Positions 7,866 to 52,206 of a stretch of 64,000 nucleotides of DNA are shown piece by piece. Location: assembly GCF_000204415.1 (NCBI RefSeq), contig NC_015416.1, positions 124,001 to 188,000 of the forward strand, written 5' to 3'. Both the position numbers and the translations under genes were made by a program. This DNA comes from Methanothrix soehngenii GP6 (GTDB taxonomy: Archaea > Halobacteriota > Methanosarcinia > Methanotrichales > Methanotrichaceae). Numbering within the stretch: the stretch's first letter is position 1; every line of letters starts with the position of its first letter. The notes below the pieces were generated by a model. That model did no database searches. It was not told where the DNA came from and worked only from the letters and a program-made list of their open reading frames with translations.

Positions 7866-7937
7866 TGGACTTGACGGGATTTGAACCCGTGGCCTCCGCC
7901 TTGCGAAGGCGGCGATCTACCACTGATCTACAAGCCC
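7866..7937 (-). tRNA. tRNA-Ala, anticodon CGC
   Basis: A full cloverleaf can be drawn on the minus strand: acceptor GGGCTTG with CAAGTCC, a D arm, anticodon stem CCGCC/GGCGG with loop TTCGCAA, and a T arm with GGTTCAAATCC. The anticodon is CGC (Ala). The acceptor contains the G3-U70 wobble pair, the classic alanine identity element, and the discriminator is A73. CCA is not encoded. There is no intron. Confidence 0.95.
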
Positions 7938-7992
7938 AATGATCCTGGATCTGCCTGGATCTAAATCGTCTCCCAAAACGATAGAGGTGGTT

Positions 7993-8262
7993 TTAGATCA
8001 GACCGACCTCTTCCACTTCCACGGACTCCACGCCGGGAAGTTTTCTCACCGCTTCCTCGATCTCATCCGGGCTGCGGCCGCCCTTGTCATCCATGATGGT
8101 CACAACGATCAGAGCCTTGAGGCCAAATGCAATTGGTTTTTGCTCGATGGCATGCATTCTGGCGAAGCTGGGCACGGCTTTCCTTATGTCCTCAGCCAGC
8201 TTTTCCAGGTCTACATCTGTGCTCTCAGGCATAACCTTCATTCTTACTGCTGCGTCTCCCAT
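7993..8262 (-). CDS. ef1b: Translation elongation factor aEF-1beta
   Basis: Guanine-nucleotide exchange factor that reloads aEF-1alpha with GTP. The 89-residue product matches the usual archaeal length of 88-91. Family features are the N-terminal [10 protein letters not shown] strand, the [14 protein letters not shown] core and the C-terminal [13 protein letters not shown] strand. The start at 8262 has a clear GAGGTGA ribosome site five bases upstream; the longer frame to 8346 is rejected because it overlaps the zinc-ribbon gene. The pairing with an upstream zinc-ribbon microprotein is a common archaeal arrangement. Confidence 0.93.
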
Positions 8263-8272
8263 TACTTTCACC

Positions 8273-8443
8273 TCATGGTCCTGTGAAGCCACAGGCCTTG
8301 CAGGTATAGACATTGCTCTGTTTTTTACATTTATTGCATCTGGCAATCACGGTTCCGCAGCTTGGGCAGGGAAACCTTGCTCCGCCCACGCCGGTCAGCG
8401 TAATGCCACATGATATGCATCTCTCTGGCATTTCTTCCTTCAT
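8273..8443 (-). CDS. Zinc-ribbon microprotein upstream of EF-1beta (HVO_2753-like)
   Basis: A 56-residue gene read from the minus strand. The start ATG at 8443 follows a GGAGGAGATAAT ribosome site; the product begins MKEEMPERC. Four Cys pairs are present: CISC, CPSC, CNKC and CKAC, giving two treble-clef or zinc-ribbon sites. The ending ACGFTGP is very typical of this archaeal family, which is found next to the EF-1beta gene. The stop lies 10 bases before the EF-1beta start, so the two are co-transcribed. A role in RNA or ribosome binding is inferred from the fold and context only. Confidence 0.9.
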
Positions 8444-8493
8444 ATTATCTCCTCCCTGGTAGACCTATTTCTCTGTATAAACCTTCCCATTGA

Positions 8494-9162
8494 TCAATAG
8501 GATGGGGAAAGCTTCTGTCCATTGATAAACGTGCCGCCCTTTCTGCATCTCAACGCTATTGCAAATGAGATCGGATCGGTGCCGTTAAGCACCCACATTC
8601 TCAATCCCGAAAGATCCCCCAATAGAAGCTTAATAGTGCCCTGATCGATGCAGCTTTCTCTTCCCAGGAGCTGGCGGGCAAAAAGCTCCTCTGCCACCGT
8701 TCCATCGATCAACACACCATCCACGTCTGTGGCTTTGATCAGGGGCAGGCCCAGCCTGGCTGCAACCAGCAAAGCTATGGAGTCGGAGGTGTAGTCCCAG
8801 GAATGCTCCGGGCAAAAGTCATCCTCGGTCAGGGCTCGATAGGGGAGAAGGACATTCACCTCCCTTTTTTCTGGAATGCGAACCTCGGAGCTGAGACTGG
8901 CTCCATTTCCGTCTGCAAGGAAAAAGGCATACTGTTCCATGGCCAGTACTGCCATCCAATGGGCGGCCTCATCGCCCAAGCCCCTTTTGGCGTTAATCTC
9001 ACGGATCAGATCGGCAAACGGCCCTCCCCCAGGCACCACCAGGAAGCTGTAGTCCTCCTCGTTCGCGAGGGAGATCAGGACGCGCATAAGATCCCGGGAG
9101 GTTTCGATGAGGCTCCCTCCAAGCTTCAATACGTAAGATGGCATGAGGATGAGTAAGGTCAC
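8494..9162 (-). CDS. mfnE: Amino acid kinase-fold protein, MfnE-type (methanofuran synthesis)
   Basis: MfnE phosphorylates 5-(aminomethyl)-3-furanmethanol phosphate with ATP during methanofuran synthesis. Seen: the amino-acid-kinase N-terminal LKLGGSL, the glycine loop VVPGGGPFADLIRE, the segment HSWDYTSDSIALLVAARLGLPLIKATDVDGV typical of this methanogen and methylotroph subfamily (first 20 residues most diagnostic), and a C-terminal LNGTDP. The length of 222 residues fits. The start could also be the ATG six codons in (MPSYVLKLGG). Uridylate and carbamate kinases share the fold but differ in these motifs. Confidence 0.82.
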   Translation of the reverse strand: MTLLILMPSYVLKLGGSLIETSRDLMRVLISLANEEDYSFLVVPGGGPFADLIREINAKRGLGDEAAHWMAVLAMEQYAFFLADGNGASLSSEVRIPEKREVNVLLPYRALTEDDFCPEHSWDYTSDSIALLVAARLGLPLIKATDVDGVLIDGTVAEELFARQLLGRESCIDQGTIKLLLGDLSGLRMWVLNGTDPISFAIALRCRKGGTFINGQKLSPSY

Positions 9163-9355
9163 TATCTGTATTTCAGCCTCTTCCTGAAGGATAAAAAGAT
9201 GGACGAAGGCCGACTGGATGTAGGGTAGGAGGGATCCATGTTATCGACCTTTGCCGTATATCTCCCCGGCTCTCGACGTAGATAAGGCTTTTGGTTGTGT
9301 TATGGATGTAACTGATAGATAATAATAGCATATTGAGTGCGGCCTGAGGAATGAG
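9163..9355. promoter_or_regulatory. Divergent intergenic region between mfnE and Nudix gene
   Basis: About 190 bases that must hold both promoters. The right half is AT-rich (around 9315-9335, TAGATAATAATAGCATA) and is the likely promoter of the Nudix gene. I see no RNA gene or strong hairpin. A frame reading across it on the minus strand (9173-9748) is a shadow of the Nudix gene. Confidence 0.4.
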
Positions 9356-34912: not shown

Positions 34913-35575
34913 TTGAACAGGCCATTTGTTTTCATAAACAGCGCCATGAGCGCGGACGGCAAGATCAGCTCAAGAGACCGCAGACAGATAAGGATCTCGG
35001 GCAAAGAGGATCTAATGAGGGTAGATGAGCTGCGGGCTGCAAGCGATGCCATCATGGTGGGGGTGGGGACGGTTCTGGCAGACGATCCCGGGCTGAGGGT
35101 CAAATCCAGGATCCTGCGGGAGAAGAGAAAGGATATGGGGCAGCTGAAAGAGCCCTTCAGAATTGTGGCGGATAGCAACGCTCGAACTCCGGCCAATGCA
35201 AAGATCCTCGGGCCTGGGTGCATGATCGCAGTATCCTATTCTGCCCCTGAGGAGAGACTGGATAGGCTTCGATCTGGCTGTGAGATAATCAAATGCGGCA
35301 CCGAGATGGTGGACCTGCCAGGGCTCATGGAAGAGCTGTATAACCGGGGGGTAAGGCGCCTTATGGTGGAAGGCGGCGCCCGCCTCAACTGGTCATTGAT
35401 AGAGCTTGGTCTGGTCGATGAGATTTACATCTACATAGGAGGGCTGATAATAGGGGGAGAGAGAGCTCCCAGCCTGGTAGATGGCCCTGGATTTCGGAAT
35501 TCCTTTCCCAGGCTCAGCCTCCAGTCTGTTCAGAGGCTGGATGAGGGCCTCCTGCTTCAGTGGGAGCTTCATTAA
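34913..35575 (+). CDS. arfC: 2,5-diamino-6-ribosylaminopyrimidinone phosphate reductase (archaeal RibD C-terminal type)
   Basis: NADPH-dependent reductase of archaeal riboflavin and F420/FAD precursor synthesis. Motifs: the N-terminal FVFINSAMSADGKISS, a GVGTVLADDPGLRV signature at about residue 50, RRLMVEGGARLNWSLIELGLVDEIYIY (VEGGA loop at 140-150) and IIGGERAP. The length of 220 residues matches the archaeal monofunctional enzyme. The start is TTG 34913 with GGAG six bases upstream. The frame ends just before the accessory island begins. Confidence 0.92.
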   Translation: MNRPFVFINSAMSADGKISSRDRRQIRISGKEDLMRVDELRAASDAIMVGVGTVLADDPGLRVKSRILREKRKDMGQLKEPFRIVADSNARTPANAKILGPGCMIAVSYSAPEERLDRLRSGCEIIKCGTEMVDLPGLMEELYNRGVRRLMVEGGARLNWSLIELGLVDEIYIYIGGLIIGGERAPSLVDGPGFRNSFPRLSLQSVQRLDEGLLLQWELH

Positions 35576-35800: not shown

Positions 35801-36047
35801 TCGCATGGCATCCAGCAGATAGAAAACCGCATCCATCCTCGGCCCGCGAGCCTTCAGCTCACTCACGGCGATCTCCCGCAGCCCGTTCCTGGTCAGGGCG
35901 CGCAGCTCCTCAGGGGGCGGCATATCCAGCACCTCATGGAGGTGTTTTGGCCTGCTCGATTTCCTCCCGCGAGCCTATCCTACAACCGCTAGATTATTCA
36001 CTAACCTCACTAATCAATTTTCAGATTGGGAAAAGTTATGTCTGGAT
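35801..36047. other. Spacer with an unassigned coding-like fragment
   Basis: On the minus strand, 35803-35932 reads MLDMPPPEELRALTRNGLRE followed by IAVSELKARGPRMDAVFYLL in an open frame with core-genome-like codon use, but it runs into the restriction remnant and has no ribosome site. It looks like a gene fragment of unknown family. The right 100 bases are AT-rich and hold the promoter of the next cluster. Confidence 0.35.
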
Positions 36048-37295
36048 ATGGTTAAGATGGCCTCAACCTTCACTTGGCTGGATTACTCAGAAAAAGAACG
36101 ACAAAGGATGCTAGATATCCTGAGCACCTTCAAGGAGCATGAGACAAGGGATGAACTTGGGATTGGTGTTATTAGAGATGCATTCTCGGATATGCTCTTT
36201 CCTGGGACAAGCGTTATCCAGACTCGTGCCAGATATTTTCTGTTTGTGCCATGGATATACAAGAGCCTTGAGGAGAAGAAGGTCCTCTCCTCAAAGATAG
36301 AAAGAAGAGCAAGAGATGAAGAAGTGCGACTGATCTATGCCCTCTTGGAGTCGAATGACACCAATGGCGTAATAGGAAAGGAGGCTAAAAAAAACCTCAA
36401 GCGGCTTCCAAGCAATATCTATTGGCAGGGGCTTGAAGCCTGGGGTATCCGGCTCTGTCCTTACTCCGTCTCCGACTATCATCGTTCTCTAGATACATTT
36501 TACAGACATCTCAAAGAGGCCTCCCATAGATATGAAGAAGAGATCGATGGTTTCGAAAGATTTCATAACTGGCATCCCGGACTTCCTCAAGCACCCTCTG
36601 ACTTCCCGGCCAAAGCCTCTTTTGACTTGACATATGATGAAGCCTGCTATCTAAAAGAGAGAGTATTATCCAGACAGCCAAATACGATGCTTGCCCACCT
36701 CTTGGACTCAGATATGCCAATTGAATCAGTGGCCTTCCCATGGGACCATCCCATTTGCCCGGACCTTCCCCAGCCAATCCAAGAGAAAATTTTGCATGCC
36801 AGAAACTTCTCAGATGCCATTAATGGCGCTTCCCTCCTTTATAACCTCATGCTTGCCGAAAAGATGGATGAATTAACCGGGCAAGCGCAGGAAAGCCTGG
36901 CGAGCTACTACGAAGATGAATTGATGGAATGGGCCGATTATCTGCAGTCACGCAGTGATGATATGTCTCGTTGGGATTATAGAAAGCGATTCTGGGATAT
37001 ATTAAACAAAGAGGGTGCACGAGTGACCGGCCTAACCTGGCGGTTTGTAAATCAATGGCTACAGATGGTCTTGTCACCAGAACGTGCTCAACAAATTGCA
37101 GGGGATGACCTCGCCAGAAAGCTCATTCATGATCGGGAAAGCCTCTTGAAACGCAATCTATCAAAGCTTGATAATCCTGATGCCCTGGCCAGATGGAATG
37201 GGCAAGCTGGCACAGGAAAGCTTAGGTATAGATGGAGACCTGCAGAGACCATCATTTCAGATATACTATTGGGTCTTAAGAGGTCCCGATGCTAG
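36048..37295 (+). CDS. DUF6361 family protein, first gene of a PLD/helicase cluster
   Basis: A 415-residue protein with the family's N-terminal FTWLDYSEKERQRMLDILSTF and the block DELGIGVIRDAFSDMLFPGT, then TRARYFLFVPWIY. I recognise this as DUF6361, whose function is unknown. The middle contains the LKRLPSNIYWQGLEAWGIR motif. No catalytic site can be named. The stop overlaps the next start by seven bases. The start may be ATG 36048 or ATG 36057 (MASTFTW). Codon use is more AT-rich than in the core genes on the left. The link with PLD and helicase genes suggests nucleic-acid defence. Confidence 0.75.
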   Translation: MVKMASTFTWLDYSEKERQRMLDILSTFKEHETRDELGIGVIRDAFSDMLFPGTSVIQTRARYFLFVPWIYKSLEEKKVLSSKIERRARDEEVRLIYALLESNDTNGVIGKEAKKNLKRLPSNIYWQGLEAWGIRLCPYSVSDYHRSLDTFYRHLKEASHRYEEEIDGFERFHNWHPGLPQAPSDFPAKASFDLTYDEACYLKERVLSRQPNTMLAHLLDSDMPIESVAFPWDHPICPDLPQPIQEKILHARNFSDAINGASLLYNLMLAEKMDELTGQAQESLASYYEDELMEWADYLQSRSDDMSRWDYRKRFWDILNKEGARVTGLTWRFVNQWLQMVLSPERAQQIAGDDLARKLIHDRESLLKRNLSKLDNPDALARWNGQAGTGKLRYRWRPAETIISDILLGLKRSRC

Positions 37296-39184
37296 ATCCC
37301 TATGATCGGAGGCACCTTCTTGAGATCCTAAGACCTCCAGACGGCTATACTCTCGATTTCGCCATTGGCACAACGTTCTCTCTTGATCTGTTGGCTCTCA
37401 TGACAGCGCCGCTTGGCTTTACACTCTTCGAGGCTGAAAGTGATTCTGGATCGCCAGATTCCCTGGCGCTAATAGAGTCAATTCGAAGATACGCAGGGAG
37501 GATCAGCATCTTCTGCCAGGAAGGCAGAATTCATATCCCCAAAGAATACGGTCAGCCTCTCTTTACATTCTTGGAAGGTTCGGTCTTCCAGGTGCATCCA
37601 CCCTACGAAGGATCGGTCTTCCATCCTAAAGCTTGGGTTCTGCGCTACAATTCTGAAGAGGGACCTGTTGTCTACCGTTTCCTATGTTTGAGTAGAAACC
37701 TCACCTACGACAGGTCATGGGATGCAGCCTTGGTTCTTGATGGAGTTCTAGAAGACAGAATTAGGGCTTTTGCCTCGAATCATCCCTTGGGGGATTTTCT
37801 AGCTTCTCTTCCGGGAATGGTAGAAAAGGGCGTGCCGATGGAGCTGCAAAAGAGGATTGACTTGATGCAGCACGAGGTCCGCAGGGTATCCTTTAATCCG
37901 CCCCAGGGCTTTGACGAAATGATATTTTACCCTCTTGGCATTGGCAATCGCCGATCCAATCCCTTCTCAGATAGAATCGATAGAATCCTGGTAATATCTC
38001 CCTTTTTATCAGAGAGCAGACTCGATTCATTTGCATCTCTGGGAAAAGGAGCCACGTTGATATCCAGATTAGATAGCCTTGAGAAAATTAAAGCCGATAG
38101 CCTAAGGCAGTTCTCGGATATATATTACCTTAAAGAAGAATTCGTTGTACAAGAGGATTCTTCTGAATTTATCGATCCTGGACAAGGACAAATTGATATC
38201 GAGAAAGAAAATTTTGCTGTATTGGACGAAAACCCCCAAGGGCTGCATGCAAAACTCTATGTTGCCGATGCTGGAGGTCAGGGCCGGATATGGACAGGCT
38301 CAGCTAATGCCACAGATGCCGCCTTCCAGGGAAATATAGAATTCCTTGTTGAACTGCGAGGCAGAAAGAAATTCTGTGGCATAGATGCGATACTAAATGG
38401 CGGCAAAGAGGCGAAAGACGAAACGGAGGCGGGTTTAAGAACTCTTCTTGATCCGTTCACGATTAACGGTGGTCCTACCGTAGATGAGATGGAATCCTTG
38501 AAGCATCTGGCAGACAAGGTCAGAAATGCGCTGATACAATCAAATCTTGCAGCACATGTATCCATGGATGGCGATGATCATTTCAGTATTTCTATGGAGG
38601 GAAGATCTCCAGTCCTTCCTGAAGAAGCCACTGTAAAATGCAGACCAATCACTCTGCAAAAGTCGAGAGCTATATGTTTCTCATCGATTCCCGGCGCTTT
38701 AGCAGAATTCAGGCACCTTCAGGATAATGAGATCTCAGCCTTTTTTGCCTTTGAATCAACAATAATTTTAGAGGAGAAAAGGTTGGCAGATGGATTTGTC
38801 CTAAAGCTGCCCCTTACCGGAGCACCAGAAGATAGAACTGAGCGAGTGCTTCGGGCTCTGCTGAAGGATAAAAGCCAGGTGCTCAGGCTTATGCTGCTTC
38901 TTCTCTCTCTTGATGGAAGGTCAGATCCAGGGGGCCTGATAGTCGGACCAGGGCGAACCAATGGGGGAAACTGGGCATCTCAAGGTATGATTCCTCTTTT
39001 CGAGTGCATGATACGAGCATTAGCGCGGGATCAACGAAGGCTCGACGACTTAAACCACCTTATTCAGGATCTCAGGAGTCATCCTGATACGAAGGATTTG
39101 CTCCCTGATAGGATAGATGAGATCTGGGAGCCCATCTGGGAGGCAAGAAAGATGATCGGAGGGGACGAACATGATAAAACATGA
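37289..39184 (+). CDS. Phospholipase D-like protein with two HxK motifs
   Basis: A 631-residue PLD-superfamily protein, second gene of the cluster. The first half-site is FHPKAWVLRY at residues 111-120 with SRNLTYDRSWDAAL about 20 residues later. The second is LHAKLYVADA near residue 318 with WTGSANATDAAF following. Two HxK...(S)xN units in one chain make one complete PLD active site. Members in defence systems cut DNA or act on lipids. There is no signal peptide or membrane segment, so a nuclease role is more likely. It overlaps the DUF6361 gene by seven bases and the helicase gene by 14 bases. Confidence 0.85.
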   Translation: MLDPYDRRHLLEILRPPDGYTLDFAIGTTFSLDLLALMTAPLGFTLFEAESDSGSPDSLALIESIRRYAGRISIFCQEGRIHIPKEYGQPLFTFLEGSVFQVHPPYEGSVFHPKAWVLRYNSEEGPVVYRFLCLSRNLTYDRSWDAALVLDGVLEDRIRAFASNHPLGDFLASLPGMVEKGVPMELQKRIDLMQHEVRRVSFNPPQGFDEMIFYPLGIGNRRSNPFSDRIDRILVISPFLSESRLDSFASLGKGATLISRLDSLEKIKADSLRQFSDIYYLKEEFVVQEDSSEFIDPGQGQIDIEKENFAVLDENPQGLHAKLYVADAGGQGRIWTGSANATDAAFQGNIEFLVELRGRKKFCGIDAILNGGKEAKDETEAGLRTLLDPFTINGGPTVDEMESLKHLADKVRNALIQSNLAAHVSMDGDDHFSISMEGRSPVLPEEATVKCRPITLQKSRAICFSSIPGALAEFRHLQDNEISAFFAFESTIILEEKRLADGFVLKLPLTGAPEDRTERVLRALLKDKSQVLRLMLLLLSLDGRSDPGGLIVGPGRTNGGNWASQGMIPLFECMIRALARDQRRLDDLNHLIQDLRSHPDTKDLLPDRIDEIWEPIWEARKMIGGDEHDKT

Positions 39185-42100
39185 ATCCATTGATATGGCC
39201 GAGAGTGAAAAGACCCTCCAAAAGCCTGATTGCGATGCGATTCTAGGAAGCTTGAAGGACTTCCAAAGAGAGACCGTAGATTATGTCTTTCGTCGGCTCT
39301 ATACTGATGAGGATTGCACAAGACGCTTCCTCGTCGCAGATGAGGTGGGCCTCGGAAAAACCCTTGTGGCCCGAGGAGTCATAGCCAAGACAATAGACCA
39401 CCTCTGGAAGACTGTTCACAGGATTGATATTATCTACATCTGCTCAAATTCAAATATTGCCAAACAGAATATAGCGCGACTAAATGTCTTGGGGGATGAT
39501 AATGCTCATTGCTCCAGTCGCATTTCTCTTTTGCCCACGATAATCAAGAATCTCGAAGAAAGAAAGATCAACTTTGTCTCTCTGACCCCAGGCACCTCTT
39601 TTGAGGTATCATCTGGCACAGGAATTGCTAATGAAAGGGCTCTCTTGTACTGGATGTTAAAGGAGGAATGGAAGCTTGAAGGAGAGGGTCATAAAAGAGT
39701 ATTTTGCGGTAGCATGAAGCTCATGAACTTCAAGAGGCTTGTAAAAGAATATCCTAGACATAAAATAGATGCTCATCTAAAAGCGTGTTTCCTTAGCCTT
39801 TTGCAGGATGACAAAGATGTATCTGATAGCAACTCTTGCATCGCTTTGCGACGTAAGGTGCAGGAGCTCTCAAGCGCTTTCTCAGAGATGAGCTTGAGTG
39901 CTTCAAGAAAAAGAGAGATGATAAAAGAGAGCAATAGATGCGTATCCGAGCTGCGTAGACTTCTCGTCAGATCATGTCTAAAAGCCCTTGAGCCGGATCT
40001 AATCATTTTGGATGAATTCCAGAGGTTCAAGCATCTTATGTACAGTGATGATGATGAAGATGCTTCAACAATTTCAGCCAGAGAACTTGCGCAAGAGCTA
40101 TTCGATTATGCTGATGAGAACTCTAAAGCCAGAGTGCTTCTGCTCTCTGCGACTCCTTATAAGATGTACACTACTGCTGACGAGTCTGGAATTGAGGATC
40201 ATTACAAGGACTTTCTAAGAACTCTGAAGTTTCTTATGCAAGATACCGCGGCAGTTGAGAAATGCGAAAGCATCCTCAGAGAATACAGGACGGAGTTGTT
40301 CCGCATTGGAAGTGGGGATGTATCTCATCTAATTCATCTGAAGGAATCACTTGAATCTCATCTCAGAAGAGTTATGGTAAGGACTGAAAGGCTTGCGGCT
40401 TCGGATGACCGAAACGGGATGCTAGAGGAGGTCTCTGATGAGTCGGTCAAGCTACATCCTGGTGATCTGATAGCCTACTGCGGCCTGCAGAATGTGGCTG
40501 AATGTCTGAACAGCCGCGATTCTCTTGAGTACTGGAAATCATCACCATATACATTGAACTTCATGGAAAAATACGAACTGAAAGGCGCCTTTGATGTCGC
40601 TTGTTCGAATAACAATAAAAAAATTTACAGTCATCTCTCAAAAGCAGAAGGATTGCTGCTTCCTTGGGATGATATCGAAGCTTATAACAAAGTTGATCCA
40701 AGAAATGCAAGGCTTCGCAGTCTTCTTTTAGGGACTATTGGTGTTAATGCCTGGAAGCTACTCTGGCTGCCTCCATCTCTGTCTTATTACGAACTCCGAG
40801 GACCTTTTGCAGATCCTGCTCTCAAGAATTTTACCAAGAGGTTGGTATTCTCTTCCTGGAGGATGGTTCCGAGGATGGTTGCGAGTCTGACGAGCTATGA
40901 AGCGGAACGTAATATAATAAGGCAATTCGATTCTAGCATCCACAAAAAGCCCGATTCAATGAAAAAGATAGGGCGTCTGCTTAAACTCGGTAGAAGTCAT
41001 AGGCAAGGGAGAATAACAGGATTGCCAATCCTGGGGATCGTATATCCGAGCATAACGCTTGCGAAGGCATGCGATCCCATTGGGTTCGCTTCTCAGCAAT
41101 TGCCATCTACAGATGATGTGATCCAGAAAGCCCAGATGGTCATAGAGAAGCTCATGGTTCCTATTCTAGAGACTTATCCAGGGTATGGAATTGAAGATGA
41201 AGACTGGTACTGGGCCGCGCCAATACTGCTGGATCTGCATTATTACCGAGGAATCTCTGAAAAAATTTTTCGCAGCAGGGATTTAGCTGTCATTTTGAGC
41301 GGCGAAGAGGTATCTGATGATGAAGACATTGATGAAAGTTCAACCCTCTGGATTGAGGCAATTGCAGAAGTCAATGATCTGATCGGGGGCAAGATCCGCC
41401 TTGAGAAACCTCCGAAGGATCTCTCATTAGTTTTGGCAAAGTTGGCATTAGCTGGGCCCGGAATAACATGTTTAAGAGCATTGTCTAGGGTCACAGGGGG
41501 GTTGCCTGCAAACAATCCTTGGCATCCTTTTTATGAGATTAGCATGAGCTCTATTCGAATGTCTCGATCTTTTATTCGTCTTTTTAATCTGTCAACGTCT
41601 ATTGCCCTGTTGCGCGGTCTTTATTCATTAGAAGATCAAGACGGTCAGGCCTATTGGAGGCAAGTTCTGGATTATTGCCTAGATGGTGGCCTTCAAGCGG
41701 TTTTAGATGAATATGTTCATTTTCTGAAGGAATCTGAGGGACTGTTTGGCAAGGAAAAGGTAGAAATTGCAGGCAAATTATCGGAAGTTGTTTCTGAAGC
41801 CATGAGCCTAAGAACCGCAAGCCTGGATGTTGATAAAATAAAAATTGACCAGAGATTAGAATCCATGTCGAGGTCTATCAAGAAGATGAGGACGAATTTT
41901 GCGGTAATGCTCTCTGATAAAAAAAGCGATGAGGGTAGGTCAGTGAATAGGATCTCCCAGGTGAGGCAGGCTTTTAATTCCCCATTTTGGCCTTTTGTTT
42001 TGGCCACAACATCGATTGGGCAGGAAGGGCTGGACTTTCATGCATATTGCCATGCAATCGTCCACTGGAATCTTCCATCGAATCCCGTTGATCTTGAGCA

Positions 42101-42506
42101 GCGTGAAGGAAGGATTCACAGGTTCAAAGGCCATGCAATAAGAAAGAATCTGGCAGCTAAATATGGACTTGCTGAAGTCGGACCTAACGATATCGATCCA
42201 TGGGATGCGCTTTTCAGAGCAGGCAAAAGAGACAGAAAAAGTGAAGCGGGGGATCTGGTTCCGTTCTGGATATATCCTGAGGGGGATTCTAAAATAGAGC
42301 GGCACGTCCCTGCGTTGCCCTTGAGTCGTGACAGAGAGAAGATGAATGAACTGAAAAAATCGCTGGCAGTATACAGGATGGTCTTTGGACAATCCAGGCA
42401 AGAGGATCTTGCTGCTTTCTTGATTAATTGCCTGAATAATGAGAGCATGGATAATCTGATGATAGACCTAAGTCCACCAAGTGACGAGAAGGGACCTATT
42501 TCATAA
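39171..42506 (+). CDS. SNF2/SWI2-like helicase, third gene of the cluster
   Basis: Large superfamily 2 ATPase, 1111 residues. Motif I is VADEVGLGKTLVARG (GLGKT at 60-64), motif II LIILDEFQRFKHL near residue 277, motif III LLLSATPYKM near 323, motif V ATTSIGQEGLDFHAY near 945, and motif VI DLEQREGRIHRFKG near 975. Between the two RecA-like lobes lies a long insertion of several hundred residues without a recognised domain. A GGAGGGG ribosome site precedes ATG 39171. The two upstream genes overlap in sequence, so all three products are probably made together. It resembles the DNA-translocating motors of DISARM-like and other defence systems. Confidence 0.88.
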   Translation: MIKHESIDMAESEKTLQKPDCDAILGSLKDFQRETVDYVFRRLYTDEDCTRRFLVADEVGLGKTLVARGVIAKTIDHLWKTVHRIDIIYICSNSNIAKQNIARLNVLGDDNAHCSSRISLLPTIIKNLEERKINFVSLTPGTSFEVSSGTGIANERALLYWMLKEEWKLEGEGHKRVFCGSMKLMNFKRLVKEYPRHKIDAHLKACFLSLLQDDKDVSDSNSCIALRRKVQELSSAFSEMSLSASRKREMIKESNRCVSELRRLLVRSCLKALEPDLIILDEFQRFKHLMYSDDDEDASTISARELAQELFDYADENSKARVLLLSATPYKMYTTADESGIEDHYKDFLRTLKFLMQDTAAVEKCESILREYRTELFRIGSGDVSHLIHLKESLESHLRRVMVRTERLAASDDRNGMLEEVSDESVKLHPGDLIAYCGLQNVAECLNSRDSLEYWKSSPYTLNFMEKYELKGAFDVACSNNNKKIYSHLSKAEGLLLPWDDIEAYNKVDPRNARLRSLLLGTIGVNAWKLLWLPPSLSYYELRGPFADPALKNFTKRLVFSSWRMVPRMVASLTSYEAERNIIRQFDSSIHKKPDSMKKIGRLLKLGRSHRQGRITGLPILGIVYPSITLAKACDPIGFASQQLPSTDDVIQKAQMVIEKLMVPILETYPGYGIEDEDWYWAAPILLDLHYYRGISEKIFRSRDLAVILSGEEVSDDEDIDESSTLWIEAIAEVNDLIGGKIRLEKPPKDLSLVLAKLALAGPGITCLRALSRVTGGLPANNPWHPFYEISMSSIRMSRSFIRLFNLSTSIALLRGLYSLEDQDGQAYWRQVLDYCLDGGLQAVLDEYVHFLKESEGLFGKEKVEIAGKLSEVVSEAMSLRTASLDVDKIKIDQRLESMSRSIKKMRTNFAVMLSDKKSDEGRSVNRISQVRQAFNSPFWPFVLATTSIGQEGLDFHAYCHAIVHWNLPSNPVDLEQREGRIHRFKGHAIRKNLAAKYGLAEVGPNDIDPWDALFRAGKRDRKSEAGDLVPFWIYPEGDSKIERHVPALPLSRDREKMNELKKSLAVYRMVFGQSRQEDLAAFLINCLNNESMDNLMIDLSPPSDEKGPIS

Positions 42507-42577: not shown

Positions 42578-43087
42578 ATGGAGATCGAACTCTGCCCGGC
42601 CGTCTCTCTCCTCCCCGAGACCTTCAACGTCCTGGTCGCCCCGGTGGAGCTGATGGCCGGAGCTATCAACAGTCACCCCGAATTGCAGCGCTATAAGATC
42701 CTCTTCATCAGCGGCAACTACTCCCGCATCCTCAGCCGGCTTAACCGGAACATCACCGAGCTGGACGTGCGCCGAGCCTTTACCTCCTTCCAGCTCATGA
42801 CCATACTGGAGGAGAACCACCACAGCTTTCTGATCGTGGAGCACGACCCCTTACTCTACGAGGACTCTCAGGGGATGGTGGGCTACCTGGCCCAGGCCCT
42901 CAAGCAGACCTCCAGAGAGGCAACCATTCTTCTCTATGCGCCTGCGCTGGATCCCCATCTAGAGAAGATGACCGAATTGGCCGACCGTGTGTTCTGCATC
43001 TACAATGAGCCGGCTGAGGCAAAGGGCCAGGGGAAGGCAAAGGCGAGGATGGCCGGAGAGCAGAGAACGCTGGAGGCGTACTCGTGA
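42578..43087 (+). CDS. Hypothetical protein, ATPase-like strand pattern
   Basis: I do not recognise this 169-residue protein. Its centre reads like the Walker B half of a RecA-like fold (HHSFLIVEHDPLLYEDSQ, then ATILLYAPALDPHLEKM and DRVFCIYNEP), but no Walker A is present. Codon use is GC-rich, like the core genome and unlike the helicase just upstream. Its last 80 coding bases and the first 21 bases after the stop recur as a 95 percent identical copy at 45210-45309. The start ATG 42578 lacks a good ribosome site, so the true start is uncertain. Confidence 0.6.
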   Translation: MEIELCPAVSLLPETFNVLVAPVELMAGAINSHPELQRYKILFISGNYSRILSRLNRNITELDVRRAFTSFQLMTILEENHHSFLIVEHDPLLYEDSQGMVGYLAQALKQTSREATILLYAPALDPHLEKMTELADRVFCIYNEPAEAKGQGKAKARMAGEQRTLEAYS

Positions 43088-43108: not shown

Positions 43109-43695
43109 CCAGGCCGTGAGAATTGTGAAATGACCTGCATTTCCATAGGCAGAACAGGAAACTCTCAAGAGTATTAGCAGTTTTTGAATGACCTCTGCTT
43201 TCAAGCTCTAGAACTGGGTCCTGGAGTTCGAGCAGAGCTTTTGGCTACAGTCATCTTTCGATCAGGAAGAATACAGATGTCATTGCTTCTTACCGATTAT
43301 CTTCAGCCAATCAACTCTTGAGAAGTCACTATCAAATGTGGCAATCTTGGAGATCTCATGCTTAAGACAGGTGGAAGCGATCAATGCATCATTGGGCAAT
43401 AAATTGTATCTGATCATGATACCCTTCCACTCATTCAGGTCATCATTAATAGGAAGAATTGAGACCTCCCGCTCTTCAATAAGCCTGAACAATAGATCCA
43501 AATCCTCCTTAAAGGGACCATAACCTCTTTGAACAATGGCCTTGCGAAATTCGGAGTAGTTCTTGGTCCCATATCGTTCTTTGCTGAGCTTGCGAAGGGA
43601 TACGAAGACTAGTTCGCTCAAAACCGTTGATGATGTCGCCAGATCGGATGGCATCAAAATTATCTCTTGAGCGGATTTGCTGAATTTCGTTTGCA

Positions 43696-44918
43696 GTGAC
43701 CACTCCCGCCAATGAATTGGCGGGCATCTAGGCTTTCGCCACAGACTGTAGCCCCAGTCTGAGAATGTTCTTAGCTGCATTAAGATCTCTGTCCATCGAC
43801 AATCCACAATAGGGACAACTATGGACTCTGACGGATAGATCCTTTTTGACTGTTTGACCACAGCAAGAGCACATCTGAGATGTATTCAATGGATTGACAA
43901 GTACAACCTTCCTACCAGCCTCTACCGCTTTGTATGAAGTGTATTGTACAAGCTTGTTCCATGATGCATCCAGAATGCTTTTTGCCAGGTTGTGATTTTG
44001 AGTCATGTTTTTTATATTCAAGTCTTCAAAACATATTATGCCATAAGAGGTTACAAGCATGTGACTGAGTTGCTGAGCAAAATCCTCTCGCCTGTTAGCA
44101 ATCCGTTCATAGAGATGGTTGACTGATTTATTTGCTTTATTTCTCTCTTGAGAACCTTTGGGCAGCTTATCGCGTTTGCTTTGGGCTTTCTTGAGCATTC
44201 CTTCATCTGCTAAGAGGAACCGAGGATTTTCTATGAACTCGCCATTAGACAATACAGCGAAGTTTGTAATCCCCACGTCAATCCCAACTACCTTATCAGA
44301 AGGTTCAATAACATGATCAATCGACTCTTCGACCAGGAAAGAGACATACCATTTATTGGTAGCAGATCGATGAATGGTTAACCTTTTAACAAATCCTTCG
44401 ATAGGCCTATGCAACTTGAATTTGATATCTCCTATCTTGGATAACCAGAGTTTATCACCGTCTATGGAAAAACCACTTTGAGGATAACTGATGCTATCGT
44501 ATCTGTTCTTTCCCTTAAAACGAGGATAGCCAGGCTTTTCGCCTGATTGAACTCTGCGAAAGAATGCCTTGAAAGCCAGATTAACTCTGAGAACAACGTC
44601 TTGCAGAACCTGAGAATAAACAGATCTCAGTTCCGGCTTAGACTCTTTCCAAATTGGAAGCATTCTCTTGGATTCAAAGTAGCTTACTGATCTGCCTTCT
44701 TGCTCGAATGCATTCTTTCGCATAGCCAGCGTTTCGTTGTAGACCCATCGGCAAAGCTCTAGCTGCTCATTAAGTTTTGTAACTTGAGCTTTTGTCGGTC
44801 TGAGTCTATACCGAAACACTTTAGCCATTATGATATTAATATGCTGTGCCGGCTAATGAGTCTTTTGGTCTATAAGTACGGGCTGTATCCCGCCTTTGAA
44901 AAGGCGGGGATTAGCCCT
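43696..44918 (-). mobile_element. IS605-group (IS1341-type) TnpB element inside the PIN gene
   Basis: An element of about 1.22 kb carrying tnpB but no Y1 transposase gene. The right end (43696-43726) has a hairpin CCCGCCAATTCATTGGCGGG followed by AGTGGTCAC. The left end (44880-44917) has a two-tier hairpin: GGGCT/AGCCC outside and CCCGCCTT/AAGGCGGG inside. No target duplication is expected for this group. Ends are inferred from the hairpins and from restoration of the PIN frame, so they may be off by a few bases. Confidence 0.8.
43728..44828 (-). CDS. tnpB: TnpB, RNA-guided nuclease/transposon protein
   Basis: Intact 366-residue TnpB. N-terminal YRLRPTKAQVTKLNEQLELCRWVYNETL (first 20 residues diagnostic), then the RuvC-like nuclease with GIDVGITNF (first Asp, near residue 187), FEDLNIKNM (Glu, near residue 273) and DRDLNAAKNI (last Asp, near residue 350). 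A zinc finger CSCCG...CPYCG lies between. The family cuts DNA guided by an RNA made from the element's right end, favouring retention of the element. The decayed copy at 23763 is a relative. No transposase TnpA is linked. Confidence 0.94.
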   Translation of the reverse strand: MAKVFRYRLRPTKAQVTKLNEQLELCRWVYNETLAMRKNAFEQEGRSVSYFESKRMLPIWKESKPELRSVYSQVLQDVVLRVNLAFKAFFRRVQSGEKPGYPRFKGKNRYDSISYPQSGFSIDGDKLWLSKIGDIKFKLHRPIEGFVKRLTIHRSATNKWYVSFLVEESIDHVIEPSDKVVGIDVGITNFAVLSNGEFIENPRFLLADEGMLKKAQSKRDKLPKGSQERNKANKSVNHLYERIANRREDFAQQLSHMLVTSYGIICFEDLNIKNMTQNHNLAKSILDASWNKLVQYTSYKAVEAGRKVVLVNPLNTSQMCSCCGQTVKKDLSVRVHSCPYCGLSMDRDLNAAKNILRLGLQSVAKA

Positions 44919-45938: not shown

Positions 45939-47525
45939 ATGGCATATGATATTAAAAGTCATTCAAGAGCTATTAACAGAATAGTCTCCGACCGTTCAGA
46001 ACGACGAGGAACAGTTTTCCTGAATTTCGCAAACGAAGATCACTACCGTTGCATTAGCGAGATGTTCGGTGGCGAAGACTACTTTAAGAAGGAATTTCCC
46101 CGTCATTATTTGCTTGCGCAGAAGACCAGGCAGGATCATGCAGCAAACAAGGCGGTAACAGCCGAATCCGACCAGCAGGGATTTAGAGACTATACAGAAG
46201 TGCTTGATGTTTCTTACAAAAAAACCGATAGGCAGCTTTATTCCTGTGGCTACGCGAACCTGGTTGGAAAGGCAGATAAGATATATCAAATCCTTTATGT
46301 CTTTAGAAATGATGAGCTCATTGACAATAATGAGTCTTTCAGCTTTGAAAGCAATTATAACTTCATAGATAAGACTACAATTGACATCGACCCTCTAGGC
46401 GGCCAGAAGGATGAGCTAACGATTATAATCAATACTACATGGATACCAGAAAGAAAAGATGTTCTCTTTTCAGCCATCAGCTATGATACCAGAGATTCAC
46501 TCAAATCAACGCTGGACGAGGTAGTCAAGGATATTGAGGTCGTAGACCCGAGACATAAGGCATCAATTCCAGATGAAGACATTCTAGTGGCCTATGGCCG
46601 GAGTGCACCAAATCTTGATTATAGCTATCCCGAGCACCGTATAGAGCAAAATCAGAGTGTCTATCTTGAGAATCGCGGAAAAGTGACACTAAATGATGGC
46701 GTTAAATTCATGGGAGGCGAAATGAAGAAGACGCTTGTTGTGCTGAATCATACTGATAAAGGCTCTATCTTGTATTCGCCGCCTATCCCGGAGAATGCAA
46801 TAAGCAGGATAGACGATACACATTTCGAATGGAATATCGATGAAGACTGGGATAATCAAATTCCAGAAAGCGTCATTGCTGGCACCAGGAGTTACAAATA
46901 TGGATTACATTTATTTTTTTACGCGCTAGGACCGGGCGATGATATCCCAAAACTGTTTCAGATTCTTGTATCCAGCCTTGAGAAGCCCCCGAATCCCCAT
47001 TACAAGCATATATCATGCATAAAACTTCAGTGGGGATGTTTGGCTGAAGACAGCCTTGTTAGGATGGTTGATGGCAGCACGAAAACAATTCGAGCTATTG
47101 CCATTGGAGACAGGGTTATGGGTTTGGGGGGCAAGTCACTGAGCGTGACAAATGTCTGGACCGGTATGGAAAAAGAGATCCTGCGAATTATAATGGAAAA
47201 AGGGAATGAAATAAGTGCTACCGAAAAGCATCCCTTTATGACAAGGGAGGGAATGAAACCTATTATTAGCCTGAGTATCGGCGATGAGCTGCTTATGGAA
47301 GATGGCAATTACTCCGCCATAGATCAATGTTATCCGGAGCCATACGGGCGCACTGTCTACAATCTGGATGTTGAAGGCGGCGGTCCATTCATCTGTAATG
47401 GCTTTGTTGTAGGCGACAACACGATCCAGAATTCATGTCAGATTCCGGCGAATGAGGCCGAAACGGATCCAGCTATCTTGATTGAAGCTGAAAAACTGAA
47501 ATCGATATACAGCAGGATAAAATGA
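45939..47525 (+). CDS. Protein with internal Hint/mini-intein domain, first gene of a two-gene unit
   Basis: A 528-residue protein. Residues 1-366 are not recognised; they are rich in beta-strand and charged segments, without signal peptide or membrane helix. Residues 367-494 form a Hint domain: block A CLAEDSLVRMVDGSTKTIRA with IGDRVMG, block B ATEKHPFMTR (conserved His at 431), block F VYNLDVEGGGPFICNGFVVG, and the final Asn in GDN followed by Thr. Cys1, the block-B His, the terminal Asn and a +1 Thr could support splicing or cleavage. There is no homing endonuclease. The penultimate His is Asp. The stop overlaps the start of the next gene (ATGA). Confidence 0.8.
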   Translation: MAYDIKSHSRAINRIVSDRSERRGTVFLNFANEDHYRCISEMFGGEDYFKKEFPRHYLLAQKTRQDHAANKAVTAESDQQGFRDYTEVLDVSYKKTDRQLYSCGYANLVGKADKIYQILYVFRNDELIDNNESFSFESNYNFIDKTTIDIDPLGGQKDELTIIINTTWIPERKDVLFSAISYDTRDSLKSTLDEVVKDIEVVDPRHKASIPDEDILVAYGRSAPNLDYSYPEHRIEQNQSVYLENRGKVTLNDGVKFMGGEMKKTLVVLNHTDKGSILYSPPIPENAISRIDDTHFEWNIDEDWDNQIPESVIAGTRSYKYGLHLFFYALGPGDDIPKLFQILVSSLEKPPNPHYKHISCIKLQWGCLAEDSLVRMVDGSTKTIRAIAIGDRVMGLGGKSLSVTNVWTGMEKEILRIIMEKGNEISATEKHPFMTREGMKPIISLSIGDELLMEDGNYSAIDQCYPEPYGRTVYNLDVEGGGPFICNGFVVGDNTIQNSCQIPANEAETDPAILIEAEKLKSIYSRIK

Positions 47526-47847
47526 ACAGGGAGGAAACCACAATGCCGGACTATAATGTAAACCGTAATTCCATGAATGCTTTAAAGACCACGAGCAGTA
47601 GTTATATGCAGCATAACGCGATTCCGAGCCTGTTCTTCAATGGAGAAAATAATTTTTCAGTTGAGGTATTCTTCTATCTTAAAAGCAAAGAGCCTAGGTC
47701 AATCCTATATGGACAGCAGGGAAAATTTGAACTTGGAGTTGACAATGGTCAGATATTTCTGAATGCACCGGGATTCTGCAATTTTATTGTGCCTGAAGAT
47801 ATAGTAACGCTCCTATCCGGAAACTTTTATTTTATTGCGCTCACCTA

Positions 47848-49253
47848 CTGTACTTTCCAACTTTTCGCTTTATTTATAATATACACTGATTATTTTAAAT
47901 CTTAAACGTGATCTTAAAATTTAAAGTTTTTATACTTGGATTGATTTTACTCGCATGGGAGTAGAATGATCAAAATAGTAAAGGCACCATTACAATTAGA
48001 GCCGTTCTTGAATAATTTTGAGGACCTCTTTACCAAACCGAGCTATTGCTCATTTCGCGACCTATGCGGGGCGCTGAGCGTATGTGATAAATCCAAGACC
48101 GTTGCCAACCTATGTGATACTATGGCGGATTGCAGTAAAGGTAAAAAATCACGTTCTTCGTATAATTGGTTTTTAAGCGATGCTAATTGGGATGAGAATG
48201 AGGTTGCGCAGCGCAAAGTAGATCTTTTCATCGATAAATTATGTTTAAAAAGTAATGATAAAATACTATTAATAATTGATGACACATATAAAGAAAAGAA
48301 TGGAATCCAAACGGATGGTGTAGGTAGATTTTACGATCATAGTAAAGAATCCTACATTTGGGGTAACAATTTTGTTACATCTGTTATCCAGTCAAAGGGA
48401 TTATTCATCCCCCATAAAGCTAAGATGTACTTCAAGAATAGCGACGAATGTGTGAATTTCAAGACAAAGCTGGAAATTGCCTTTGATGAGATAATTGAAC
48501 CATTGAAGGTCCCAAAAGGAATGAACCTCTGTATAGTTTTCGATAGCTGGTGGTCATCCGAAGAATTAATTAATAAATGCATAAATTTAGGGCACAGCGT
48601 AGTTTGCCAAATCAAATCCGATAGAAAAGTTGGGATAAATAACATCATGAATTTCCAAGTTAGGGAAATGGCAAACCAAATTGATGAAAAGCATTTTACC
48701 AAGACAATTATCAATGTCCGAGGAAAGAAAAAGACCTATTACACATTTGAAAAGAATGTCATAATTGATCGCATCGGAGAGGTCAAACTTGTTATCTCCA
48801 AAAGAAAAAGAGACGGAGTAACAAAGTATATCATAAGCACCGATAAATCCCTTTCTCCGAAAGAAGTCATATCTATCTATGAGGATAGGTGGGATATCGA
48901 AACAGCCCACCGAGAAATAAATCAAAAATTGGGATTCAAAGATTATCAATTACGGGATAAAAACACTATTGAGAGATTTATCCAACTTGTCTTTTCAGTA
49001 TGGGCTGCAATTCTCTTCTGGGAAATGGACAATCCACCAGCAAAAGACGGCTCAAATCCAAGAACAATGGGCGAGATGATCGATCAAGTAAAAATGCAGG
49101 CACTCGGAGAAACATTTGAATACATTATGATATATTTTAATTTGCCTGTGCCGAAAGGCGGACTACTTCATGTGCTTAAGGGTCTAGGATTAAAAATTTA
49201 ATGTTGAATATGTTATGAATAATAAAAAATTAGGAGAAACTTGGAAAGTACAG
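47848..49253 (+). mobile_element. Insertion sequence 1 (DDE, IS4/IS701-like), 1406 bp
   Basis: Terminal inverted repeats CTGTACTTTCCAA (47848) and TTGGAAAGTACAG (ends 49253), with a flanking direct repeat TCACCTA at 47841-47847 and 49254-49260. If the repeats are taken to start one or more bases outward (ACTGTAC...), the duplication shortens to CACCT. One transposase gene fills the element. It splits the first LamG domain at ALTY|NGSK. Confidence 0.93.
47966..49201 (+). CDS. DDE transposase (IS4/IS701 superfamily)
   Basis: A 411-residue cut-and-paste transposase. The catalytic acids are visible as LLIIDDTYKEKNG (first Asp), LCIVFDSWWSSEELI (second Asp) and YEDRWDIETAHREINQKLGF (Glu in the YxxRW-IE motif). 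A GGGAG ribosome site precedes the ATG. The frame is intact, so the element could still be active. AT-rich codon use contrasts with the core genome. The exact IS family (IS4, IS701 or an unclassified relative) cannot be set without a database search. Confidence 0.88.
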   Translation: MIKIVKAPLQLEPFLNNFEDLFTKPSYCSFRDLCGALSVCDKSKTVANLCDTMADCSKGKKSRSSYNWFLSDANWDENEVAQRKVDLFIDKLCLKSNDKILLIIDDTYKEKNGIQTDGVGRFYDHSKESYIWGNNFVTSVIQSKGLFIPHKAKMYFKNSDECVNFKTKLEIAFDEIIEPLKVPKGMNLCIVFDSWWSSEELINKCINLGHSVVCQIKSDRKVGINNIMNFQVREMANQIDEKHFTKTIINVRGKKKTYYTFEKNVIIDRIGEVKLVISKRKRDGVTKYIISTDKSLSPKEVISIYEDRWDIETAHREINQKLGFKDYQLRDKNTIERFIQLVFSVWAAILFWEMDNPPAKDGSNPRTMGEMIDQVKMQALGETFEYIMIYFNLPVPKGGLLHVLKGLGLKI

Positions 49254-50904
49254 TCACCTATAACGGTAGCAAGATATCGCTTTTTTTACAGGGTTACAAG
49301 ATTTTTGAGACCGACAAAATTGGCGTCTCGGCAAGATCGCAGGACCCTCTCTGCATCGGGAGAGGAATATCGGGTTACATCTGTACAATAAGAGTGTTTT
49401 CAGAGATTTTGGCAGACGAACAAATTCTGTCGGATAATCTCAATGAGCTTGCAGGCGGAGATTCCTGCGTAGCATGGCTTGTGTTTTCAGATAATCAGCC
49501 GATTGATAAAAGCAAAAATAAGCTGGCCATTTCTCTGGTTGGCGAAGGCACCTGGGTTGTTAACTTGGTGGCCTGCTCAAGCTTCTCCGGCATGGGATGC
49601 GCCCAACTAAAAAACAAAGTGAGTAAAAATTATGATGAGTTTACAGTCCTGGGCAAGGTATATCCGCTGTTTACCTCAAACGACGAGATGGTGATCTACA
49701 CTAGCCGGAGCGCTACTGATGGATATACAGTTTTACTTAGAAGACAAGAGGACTACAATTACAGGCTGGTGTTCAAGGCAGCAAGCGGCGAGCTGATATC
49801 CTTAAAAGAGGTTAGAGCAAACCGATGGTTTGACTTTGCGATTACACTGTTGTCGGGAAAAATCACACTGTATATCGATGGTGCCAATGCGGGCGAAATG
49901 AGCATCTCCTCCATCAATCTGAAAGGCGACGCAAACGCTCTCATTGGCACAGGCTACGATGATGGATATATGGATTATAAGAAGGGTTTTTCAGGTTATA
50001 TCGATTATATAGCCGAGTTCGAAAAGGCACTGGATTCAACAAGGATAGAAGGCTATGTAGACAATCCGCCTTTCATATTTGACAAGGACTTGATCTCGTC
50101 CATGAGTCTCAATTCCGCAACTCCATCGGAGCTTGCTTATGATGAGCCTATCTGGGCACATGGCGATTTTCAGTACGTCTTGGCTGAATCGACCAATCCT
50201 ACAAACTCGCCTAAGGGGATTCAGTACTTTTATCCAACGGAAATAGATCCTCTTTGGAGCAGGCTGAGTCAGGAAGATCAATGGAAGATCAATTATTACT
50301 GCACATACGTTGATACCATTATCAATGATGTATTAGGTCTTGCTCAGCAACATGATAGCAACATGGTCGGCATGGATCCAGATCTGGCCCGAACCGGCAC
50401 CACCGGTCTGGTGAGAAGACGGGCGGCTGCCCGCGTCAATTTGCGTCAGCCCAATCCGGAAAATGTAGAAGTTGAAATGCAGCCATTGCTGAGGCATCGC
50501 GGCAATATTCAAAACCGAAGGGTGCCTAGGATTCCTCACAACGGGTTTAACGGCGCGGTCGGTGGAGGAGCTGCAGCAATGGGTGCAGGCGCTGCAGGAT
50601 CTGTTTCTGGCAGCGGCACCTTCGTGGCGGCCGTTGCAGCAATAGGCGTTTTCGTGACAGCCGCCGTGGTTCTTTTTACTATATTTTATGATCGTCCTGA
50701 ACCCGTTAAATCGGATATCAGGATCAAATCCCTGCGGTTCAACAGCGACGGAGACAGCACAATCGGTAGTCTGAATTGCAGAAAAGACTCGGCAACAACC
50801 GTGCCGGTTAGAGCTGTGAAGAATCCCTCCGGGAAAATAGAAATTACCGGAGTTTTTGTCCCCGCTGATCTGACTAAAATAAATTTAATAGCAGAAGTTT
50901 ATTG

Positions 50905-52206
50905 GGCTCCTCGCTATTCTCTGTGGGTAGCTGGTTAAGTCTTTATAGCAACTCATGCTAGAAAATTAGCCGTGTCAATCTCCCAGGAAGCCCTATTTAA
51001 GATAGCATTGAATCTTGAAGATCCTTGGTACATCAAGACGATAGATTTCAGTGCCGAAGGAAAGCAACTTGATATACACGTTGACTTCGAACCAGGCAGC
51101 AAATTTCCTTGTGCGAAATGCGGCAATCCAGGTTGCAGCGTGCATGATACTATCGAAAGAACCTGGCGACATTTGAACTTCTTTCAGTTTAAAACCTATA
51201 TCCACTGTCGTGTCCCTCGCACGATCTGTGAAGACTGCGGAGTGAAGCAGTCAAAGGTTCCCTGGGCAAGAAAAGGTAGCGGTTTCACCTTGCTTATGGA
51301 TTCTCTGATAGTCCTTATGGCTCAATACATGACTGTTACTGCTATTGCTGAAATGATTGATGAACATGATACTCGGATATGGAGAGTCCTGCAACATTAT
51401 GTCGCAGAAGCTAGATCCAATGAGGACTTTTCAATGGTCAAATCAATCGGAGTTGATGAGACATCAAGAGCTAAAGGACATAAATATGTTTCAGTATTTA
51501 TAGATCTAGATGAGTCGAGAGTTATCCATGTATGCGAAGGAAAAGATGCCTCAACTATCGGATCGTTTAAAGATGATCTAGAGCAGCATAACGGATCTAG
51601 CGAAAATATTGAAAATTTCTGCTGCGATATGTCGCCAGCTTTTATATCTGGTATAGAGAATAGTTTTCCTAATGCATCGATAACGTTTGATAAATTCCAT
51701 GTTATGAAATTGATGAATGAAGCTGTTGATAAAGTCAGACGTGAGGAACAATCACACAATGCTTTGCTGAAAAGAACAAGATATATCTGGCTCAAAAATC
51801 CCGAGAACCTCACAGCCAATCAGAATAAGATGCTAACGCCACTAAAAAGCATCCGATTAAAAACGATGAGAGCTTATAATATTAAATTAGCCCTTCGCGA
51901 CTTTTGGAGCTATGAATATCGGAAATCCGCCGAGGACTACCTCAAACGCTGGTATTATTGGGCTACGCATAGCAGACTCGATCCTGTGATCGAATGCGCT
52001 AAAATGATAAAGAATCACTGGAATGGCGTGACTAATTATATTAAAACAAAAATCGATAATGGTATCCTGGAAGGAACAAATAGTCTGATTCAGGCTGCAA
52101 AGGATAGCGCCAGAGGTTTCAGATCAACAAAAAATTTCATTACTATTATTTATATCAGGACAGGGAAACTCAAATTCAATTTACCCACATGAAACAGCGA
52201 GGAGCC
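50905..52206 (+). mobile_element. Insertion sequence 2 (ISL3 family), 1302 bp
   Basis: Imperfect 25-base terminal inverted repeats starting GGCTCCTCGCT at 50905 and ending AGCGAGGAGCC at 52206, matching at 21 of 25 positions. They are flanked by an eight-base direct repeat GTTTATTG (50897-50904 and 52207-52214), the duplication size usual for ISL3. It splits the giant gene at AEVY|CEGG. Confidence 0.95.
50972..52192 (+). CDS. ISL3 family transposase
   Basis: A 406-residue transposase starting at GTG 50972. N-terminal zinc ribbons (CAKCGNPGC and CRVPRTICEDCGV), a helix-turn-helix, then the ISL3 catalytic core with SIGVDETSRAKGHKYVSVFI (first Asp), CCDMSPAFISGIENSFPNA (second Asp), FDKFHVMKLMNEAVDKVRRE and, near the end, GILEGTNSLIQAAKDSARGF (Glu). 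The frame is complete, so the element may be active. Confidence 0.95.
   Translation: MSISQEALFKIALNLEDPWYIKTIDFSAEGKQLDIHVDFEPGSKFPCAKCGNPGCSVHDTIERTWRHLNFFQFKTYIHCRVPRTICEDCGVKQSKVPWARKGSGFTLLMDSLIVLMAQYMTVTAIAEMIDEHDTRIWRVLQHYVAEARSNEDFSMVKSIGVDETSRAKGHKYVSVFIDLDESRVIHVCEGKDASTIGSFKDDLEQHNGSSENIENFCCDMSPAFISGIENSFPNASITFDKFHVMKLMNEAVDKVRREEQSHNALLKRTRYIWLKNPENLTANQNKMLTPLKSIRLKTMRAYNIKLALRDFWSYEYRKSAEDYLKRWYYWATHSRLDPVIECAKMIKNHWNGVTNYIKTKIDNGILEGTNSLIQAAKDSARGFRSTKNFITIIYIRTGKLKFNLPT

Follow-up and report, generated by a model that had tools for sequence, protein, structure and literature searches.

The window analysed here is a stretch of 64,000 nucleotides from Methanothrix soehngenii GP6 (NC_015416.1, positions 124,001 to 188,000), the genome of which comprises 3.0 Mb in two contigs. 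It carries three consecutive genes, all on the forward strand: zacA (36048..37295), which specifies a 415 amino acid DUF6361 protein (ORF list, PF19888 and the ZacA model of PADLOC); zacB (37289..39184), encoding a 631 amino acid phosphodiesterase of the PLD superfamily with two HxK motifs (PADLOC ZacB and Foldseek); and zacC (39171..42506), the product of which is a 1111 amino acid SF2/SNF2-type helicase-translocase (PADLOC ZacC). Exactly as the original prediction had it, zacA and zacB overlap by 7 bases, and zacB and zacC by 14. Since this overlapping layout was found again in approximately 70 other genomes, with overlaps at most of the loci, it is not due to chance. The three genes are real and intact. 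The homologues of ZacA begin at the ATG at position 36057, for which reason this is probably the true start of zacA. Upstream lies a leader of approximately 73 bp (35975..36047, forward strand) which, in blastn comparison, is kept in an 83%-identical operon of another genus (locus L012) and is presumed to be the promoter region.

Against the models of PADLOC-DB v2.0.0 (PDLC03828-PDLC03830) ZacA scored 436 bits (residues 4-411 on model positions 1-395 of 396), ZacB 557 bits (residues 1-621 on 1-582 of 586) and ZacC 1106 bits (residues 20-1102 on 5-1016 of 1019). Because all three proteins match nearly end to end, the cluster is, as judged by these model matches, a complete archaeal ZacABC operon of a type already catalogued in PADLOC-DB. 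The assignment of the first gene to DUF6361 was borne out by Pfam (PF19888, with 205 bits where the cut-off is 25). The statement that the cluster could not be placed in a named system was wrong; the original prediction had allowed that a search might reveal a standard named system and, as to naming, the PADLOC matches do so. A search of one literature library for ZacA, ZacB and ZacC, for Zac together with PADLOC, and for DUF6361 returned nothing relevant and no Zac experiment, so that it is the models in the database from which the name derives. A role in defence is suggested by the PADLOC listing and by association.

The AlphaFold2 model of ZacA is all-helical and confidently predicted (pLDDT 89, pTM 0.86); confidence drops only at residues 1-13 and 21-33. 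No match to this predicted fold was found among PDB structures and viral models, which would make it a fold without solved relatives. Many tryptophan, arginine, aspartate and glutamate residues are invariant among the homologues.

ZacB bears the hallmark of the PLD superfamily, two HxK half-sites with GSxN/SxN, in all 65 homologues aligned, which confirms the two-motif PLD protein proposed originally. In motif I (H112-x-K114 ... N137-x-T139-x-D141 ... W144-D145; 37622..37723, forward strand) residues H112, K114, N137, T139 and both aspartates are invariant (65/65); the aspartate of the HKD signature is missing, and R119 is found instead in 64 of the 65. Motif II (H320-x-K322 ... G337-S338-x-N340-x-T342 ... 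E351; 38246..38341, forward strand) is likewise invariant in 65/65, including H320, K322, N340 and E351; here the HKD aspartate alternates with glutamate, position 327 being one or the other in 60. The AlphaFold2 model (pLDDT 85) shows an FN3-like sandwich towards the C-terminus, at approximately residues 420-510. When this model was compared with the PDB using Foldseek the nearest fold was that of Tdp1 (E 7e-8, TM by target 0.42-0.47), followed by PLD1 and then by the restriction nucleases SauUSI, NgoAVII and BfiI, SauUSI being found by profile as well; the sequence of ZacB alone matched nothing in the PDB. Nine ZacB proteins searched against the Pfam Tdp1 family gave no match up to E 5, yielding PLDc_2 and weak others only, and the relationship to Tdp1 is consequently one of fold and not of family membership. 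Lipids, RNA and phosphotyrosyl bonds are also among the targets of PLD enzymes; fold and partner point to DNA as the putative substrate of ZacB.

The motifs of an SF2/SNF2-type enzyme in ZacC are 98-100% conserved in 53 homologues, except for single variable positions. Motif I, the Walker A sequence ADEVGLGKT (39336..39362), is 98-100% conserved, while motif II (DEFQRF, containing DEFQ; 40011..40028) and motif III (SATP; 40146..40157) are conserved in all 53; motifs V and VI (TSIGQEGLDFH ... EQREGRIHR; 42009..42122) are near-invariant apart from two variable positions, and all of these lie on the forward strand. A long insert separates motifs III and V, in agreement with the earlier description of an 1111-residue helicase with a large insertion. 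Profile comparison revealed distant similarity to DpdE, DrmD, BrxH and RapA, and no domain in common between ZacB and ZacC. The conservation analyses thus supply concrete, testable residues in both ZacB and ZacC.

Relatives of ZacA number at least 333 among 84,980 species genomes (GTDB), a lower bound, the scan having used two short conserved patterns. Judged by organism titles, methanogens, haloarchaea, Chloroflexota, Cyanobacteria, Planctomycetota, Pseudomonadota, Desulfobacterota and Bacillota are among the hosts. Gene order was compared in the 80 best loci and in plasmid records: of 82 loci with room for it, 81 have ZacB next after ZacA, and of 72 such loci, 70 have ZacC next after ZacB. 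The three exceptions are frameshifted or truncated copies. The genes are therefore linked elsewhere, contrary to a possibility which the original prediction had left standing, and their linkage is strict across many phyla, Zac now extending to the Methanotrichaceae and halophilic archaea. The dN/dS ratios of the zac genes (approximately 0.06-0.20 in comparison with three relatives) show purifying selection.

The distribution is patchy. Among 61 related genomes ZacA occurs in 4, ZacB in 3 and ZacC in 4, mostly the same genomes, and within the genus ZacA is present in 1 of 26. An orphan C-terminal fragment of ZacC in another genome of the genus (L132, on G021:C129; 3516-5819), on a stretch lacking zacA and zacB, suggests that zac was once present there and then lost. 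The operon of another genus mentioned above (L012) shares 83% DNA identity, and 90% in ZacA, by blastn; this homology covers 35975-42480 and goes no further, except that a repeat of 141 bp is shared at some distance upstream. Since the homology is confined almost exactly to the operon, zac seems to move as a unit. In the window the repeat, of approximately 140 bp, occupies 35804-35944; L012 has it upstream of zac as well (9194-9334), and L130 contains two copies. The operon is also carried on plasmids, one of which, from Cronobacter (L006), has a tyrosine recombinase gene (7933-8907) ending approximately 90 bp before zacA; this is a possible mobilising element. Complete E. coli genomes gave nothing close to the operons of Cronobacter or Serratia, and the viral contigs of IMG/VR gave no relative. 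Among phage records a divergent zacABC, of approximately 30% identity, was found on one unverified human-gut "Bacteriophage sp." scaffold (L131, MT835621.1; 12001-18248).

In the window, synteny with genomes of the same genus is kept on the left up to a ribD-like gene ending at 35575, directly after which foreign DNA of lower G+C content begins; a search for the empty site in same-genus genomes did not find the right edge. The original prediction had placed the cluster in an island with a restriction-enzyme remnant, a toxin-antitoxin pair and TnpB. Of these, a TnpB-like ORF was seen by eye (43728-44828). The upstream remnant amounts to a sub-threshold Pfam match to T1RH-like_C (E 0.012), blastx against two HsdR proteins having found nothing, and the antitoxin of the pair was not established. 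A PIN-domain ORF (43280-43861), which lacks the start of the domain and overlaps the 3’ end of the TnpB-like ORF, is probably a truncated toxin. Between zacC and this ORF lies a gene for a 169 amino acid protein (42578-43087) without a Pfam match. It belongs to a family that is multicopy in the genus: a single genome may have as many as 12 matches, many of the matches contain stops, and a 95% identical copy lies at G000:C1:1885804-1886310. The gene thus resembles a mobile or repeated gene in decay. Further downstream, the region 45939-50938 includes a protein that has a Hint/mini-intein-like domain in its interior (residues ~367-479). Just downstream of this protein an ISC1217-type DDE transposase (47966-49201) is flanked by 47522-47905 on one side and by a Laminin_G ORF (49241-50938) on the other, and these two flanking pieces are possibly one gene split by its insertion.

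We consider that ZacABC is probably a mobile innate-immunity module in which an ATP-driven translocase and a nuclease act against foreign DNA and ZacA serves as their adaptor or as a sensor. ZacC, as an ATP-driven translocase of the SNF2/RapA/DrmD class, would load on invading DNA and move along it. The two HxK half-sites of ZacB would form one active site and cut the engaged DNA via a phosphohistidine intermediate, and ZacA would assemble or license the ZacB-ZacC machine. Because Zac is without a methylase of its own, the choice between self and non-self would have to depend either on a system nearby or on the state of the DNA, such as ends or replication intermediates. We infer the complex of ZacB with ZacC and the antiviral outcome; the part ascribed to ZacA is suggested by its conservation.

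In other genomes zac has various neighbours. Type I and type III restriction-modification (RM) systems, Mrr-type nucleases, a type III-like methylase, BrxL, AddAB-like genes and DruE/YprA helicases are all found nearby, although among 96 flanking genes only a minority belongs to any recurring defence family and the direct neighbours are varied. In an archaeal relative with 77% ZacA identity (L013:2-14339) a type IIG/DrmMI-like methylase, a DruE-like helicase of 1799 amino acids with an MZB (DUF1998) domain, and zacABC follow one another on one strand, the helicase gene lying 12 bp from zacA; this is a DISARM-like parts list made from other genes. A DruE-like gene likewise lies upstream of zacABC on the same strand in L016:3065-14754 and L018:70-11225, the distance over these loci being 12-51 bp. 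Since the helicases of ARMADA and Druantia are closely related (PMC12458937), the PADLOC label "DruE" at the three loci may mean ARMADA. A type I RM system precedes zac in L012 and L017, and a methylase directly follows it in L009, L011 and L084. AddAB-like genes are near zac in approximately 14 loci. A pair consisting of an AddB-like PD-(D/E)XK protein and an AddA-like UvrD-nuclease stands beside zac in several phyla (L009, L010 and L011, 1-9000; also L007, L008, L016, L026, L027, L058, L062 and L066), and on rhizobial plasmids an AddAB-like pair is accompanied by a multiubiquitin/ThiF/DUF6527 operon. The AddAB-like genes were rejected as an obligatory part of Zac as they occur on plasmids without it, AddB being found in 64 plasmid records and ZacA in 47, with many of the AddB plasmids lacking a ZacA match.

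These arrangements would be expected if Zac were a swap-in effector or accessory module borrowing the self/non-self discrimination of larger arrays, be they of the ARMADA/Druantia type with a YprA helicase and a methylase, AddAB-like with nuclease and helicase, or type I or III RM systems. Most loci, the window included, have zacABC without an adjacent partner, and the association with AddB is not obligatory; we therefore regard a dependent module of this kind as unlikely. A broader suggestion, possible and put forward tentatively, is that ZacABC is a portable cassette for destroying DNA, based on the undescribed fold of ZacA and a Tdp1-like PLD protein. It would work alone and yet have been wired repeatedly into larger arrays, its partners being a methylase and a DUF1998 helicase in archaea, and AddAB-like genes in cyanobacteria, in Chloroflexota and on the plasmids of rhizobia; the resulting composite systems would draw a DISARM-like parts list from unrelated genes.

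The missing methylase, and with it any built-in protection of self DNA, could also mean that ZacB and ZacC degrade host and invader DNA together once ZacA, as the trigger, senses infection. Pfam and PADLOC found no toxin-like or regulatory domain in the Zac proteins, and the translocase and nuclease pairs of DISARM, ARMADA and RM systems act directly, the effect of ARMADA being reported as direct and non-abortive (PMC12458937), so that an abortive-infection nuclease is quite improbable. A system of DNA repair or end-processing outside defence, joining Tdp1-like removal of 3’ adducts to a translocase, would suit the best PDB fold of ZacB, its HxK...N half-sites without the motif I aspartate and the AddAB-like neighbours, but is highly improbable given that the nearness to Tdp1 may only mirror a shared single-chain double-HxK build, with no Pfam Tdp1 match, and that a patchy, plasmid-borne and island-located distribution is unlike that of a repair gene.

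Among known systems class 1 DISARM (DrmD, DrmMI, DrmA, DrmB, DrmC) resembles the probable translocase-nuclease module described here in having a PLD protein beside an SNF2-class helicase. The DISARM label was nevertheless rejected with respect to DrmB, DrmA, the methylases and DrmC. The three proteins contain no MZB/DUF1998 domain and no full-length match to DrmA; no methylase domain (DrmMI/DrmMII) was found in them or in the flanking proteins scanned with Pfam, the other flanking ORFs being read by eye; and DrmC aligned with ZacB over approximately 40 residues around motif II (E 4e-4), the NCBIfam DrmC model giving 20.8 bits against a cut-off of 133. Zac differs further in its two-motif PLD protein of 631 amino acids and in DUF6361, which is not a DISARM part. 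The original view that the three genes form a defence-type operon other than DISARM, with neither DUF1998 nor a methylase in its three proteins, is thus supported.

The BREX-related type 2 systems, composed of an HKD DNase, a Swi2/Snf2 helicase and an N6-methylase (PMC12839542, where DUF6361 is not named), have a comparable effector pair of HKD-type nuclease and helicase; unlike them Zac has no methylase. Type I ARMADA and Druantia III (PMC12458937, PMC13192584) share with Zac the logic of a helicase and a nuclease, while a YprA-family helicase (MZB), a PglX-like methylase and DruH are absent from the cluster in the window. In Druantia III, DruE engages intermediates that contain ssDNA (PMC13192584), and the findings on both systems may bear on Zac as analogies only. 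At the level of fold, ZacB resembles Tdp1 in its single-chain double-HxK architecture, and the restriction nucleases SauUSI (where the nuclease is fused to a helicase), NgoAVII and BfiI in the PLD nuclease fold; it differs from these three in that both half-sites are on one chain and the helicase is a separate gene. The closest counterpart is Zac as catalogued in PADLOC, which has the same three genes at full length, in the order A-B-C, on one strand and in the same overlapping layout. Nothing essential sets the window copy apart: it is archaeal (Methanotrichaceae), and its ZacC is somewhat longer, with 1111 amino acids against the 1019 positions of the PADLOC model.
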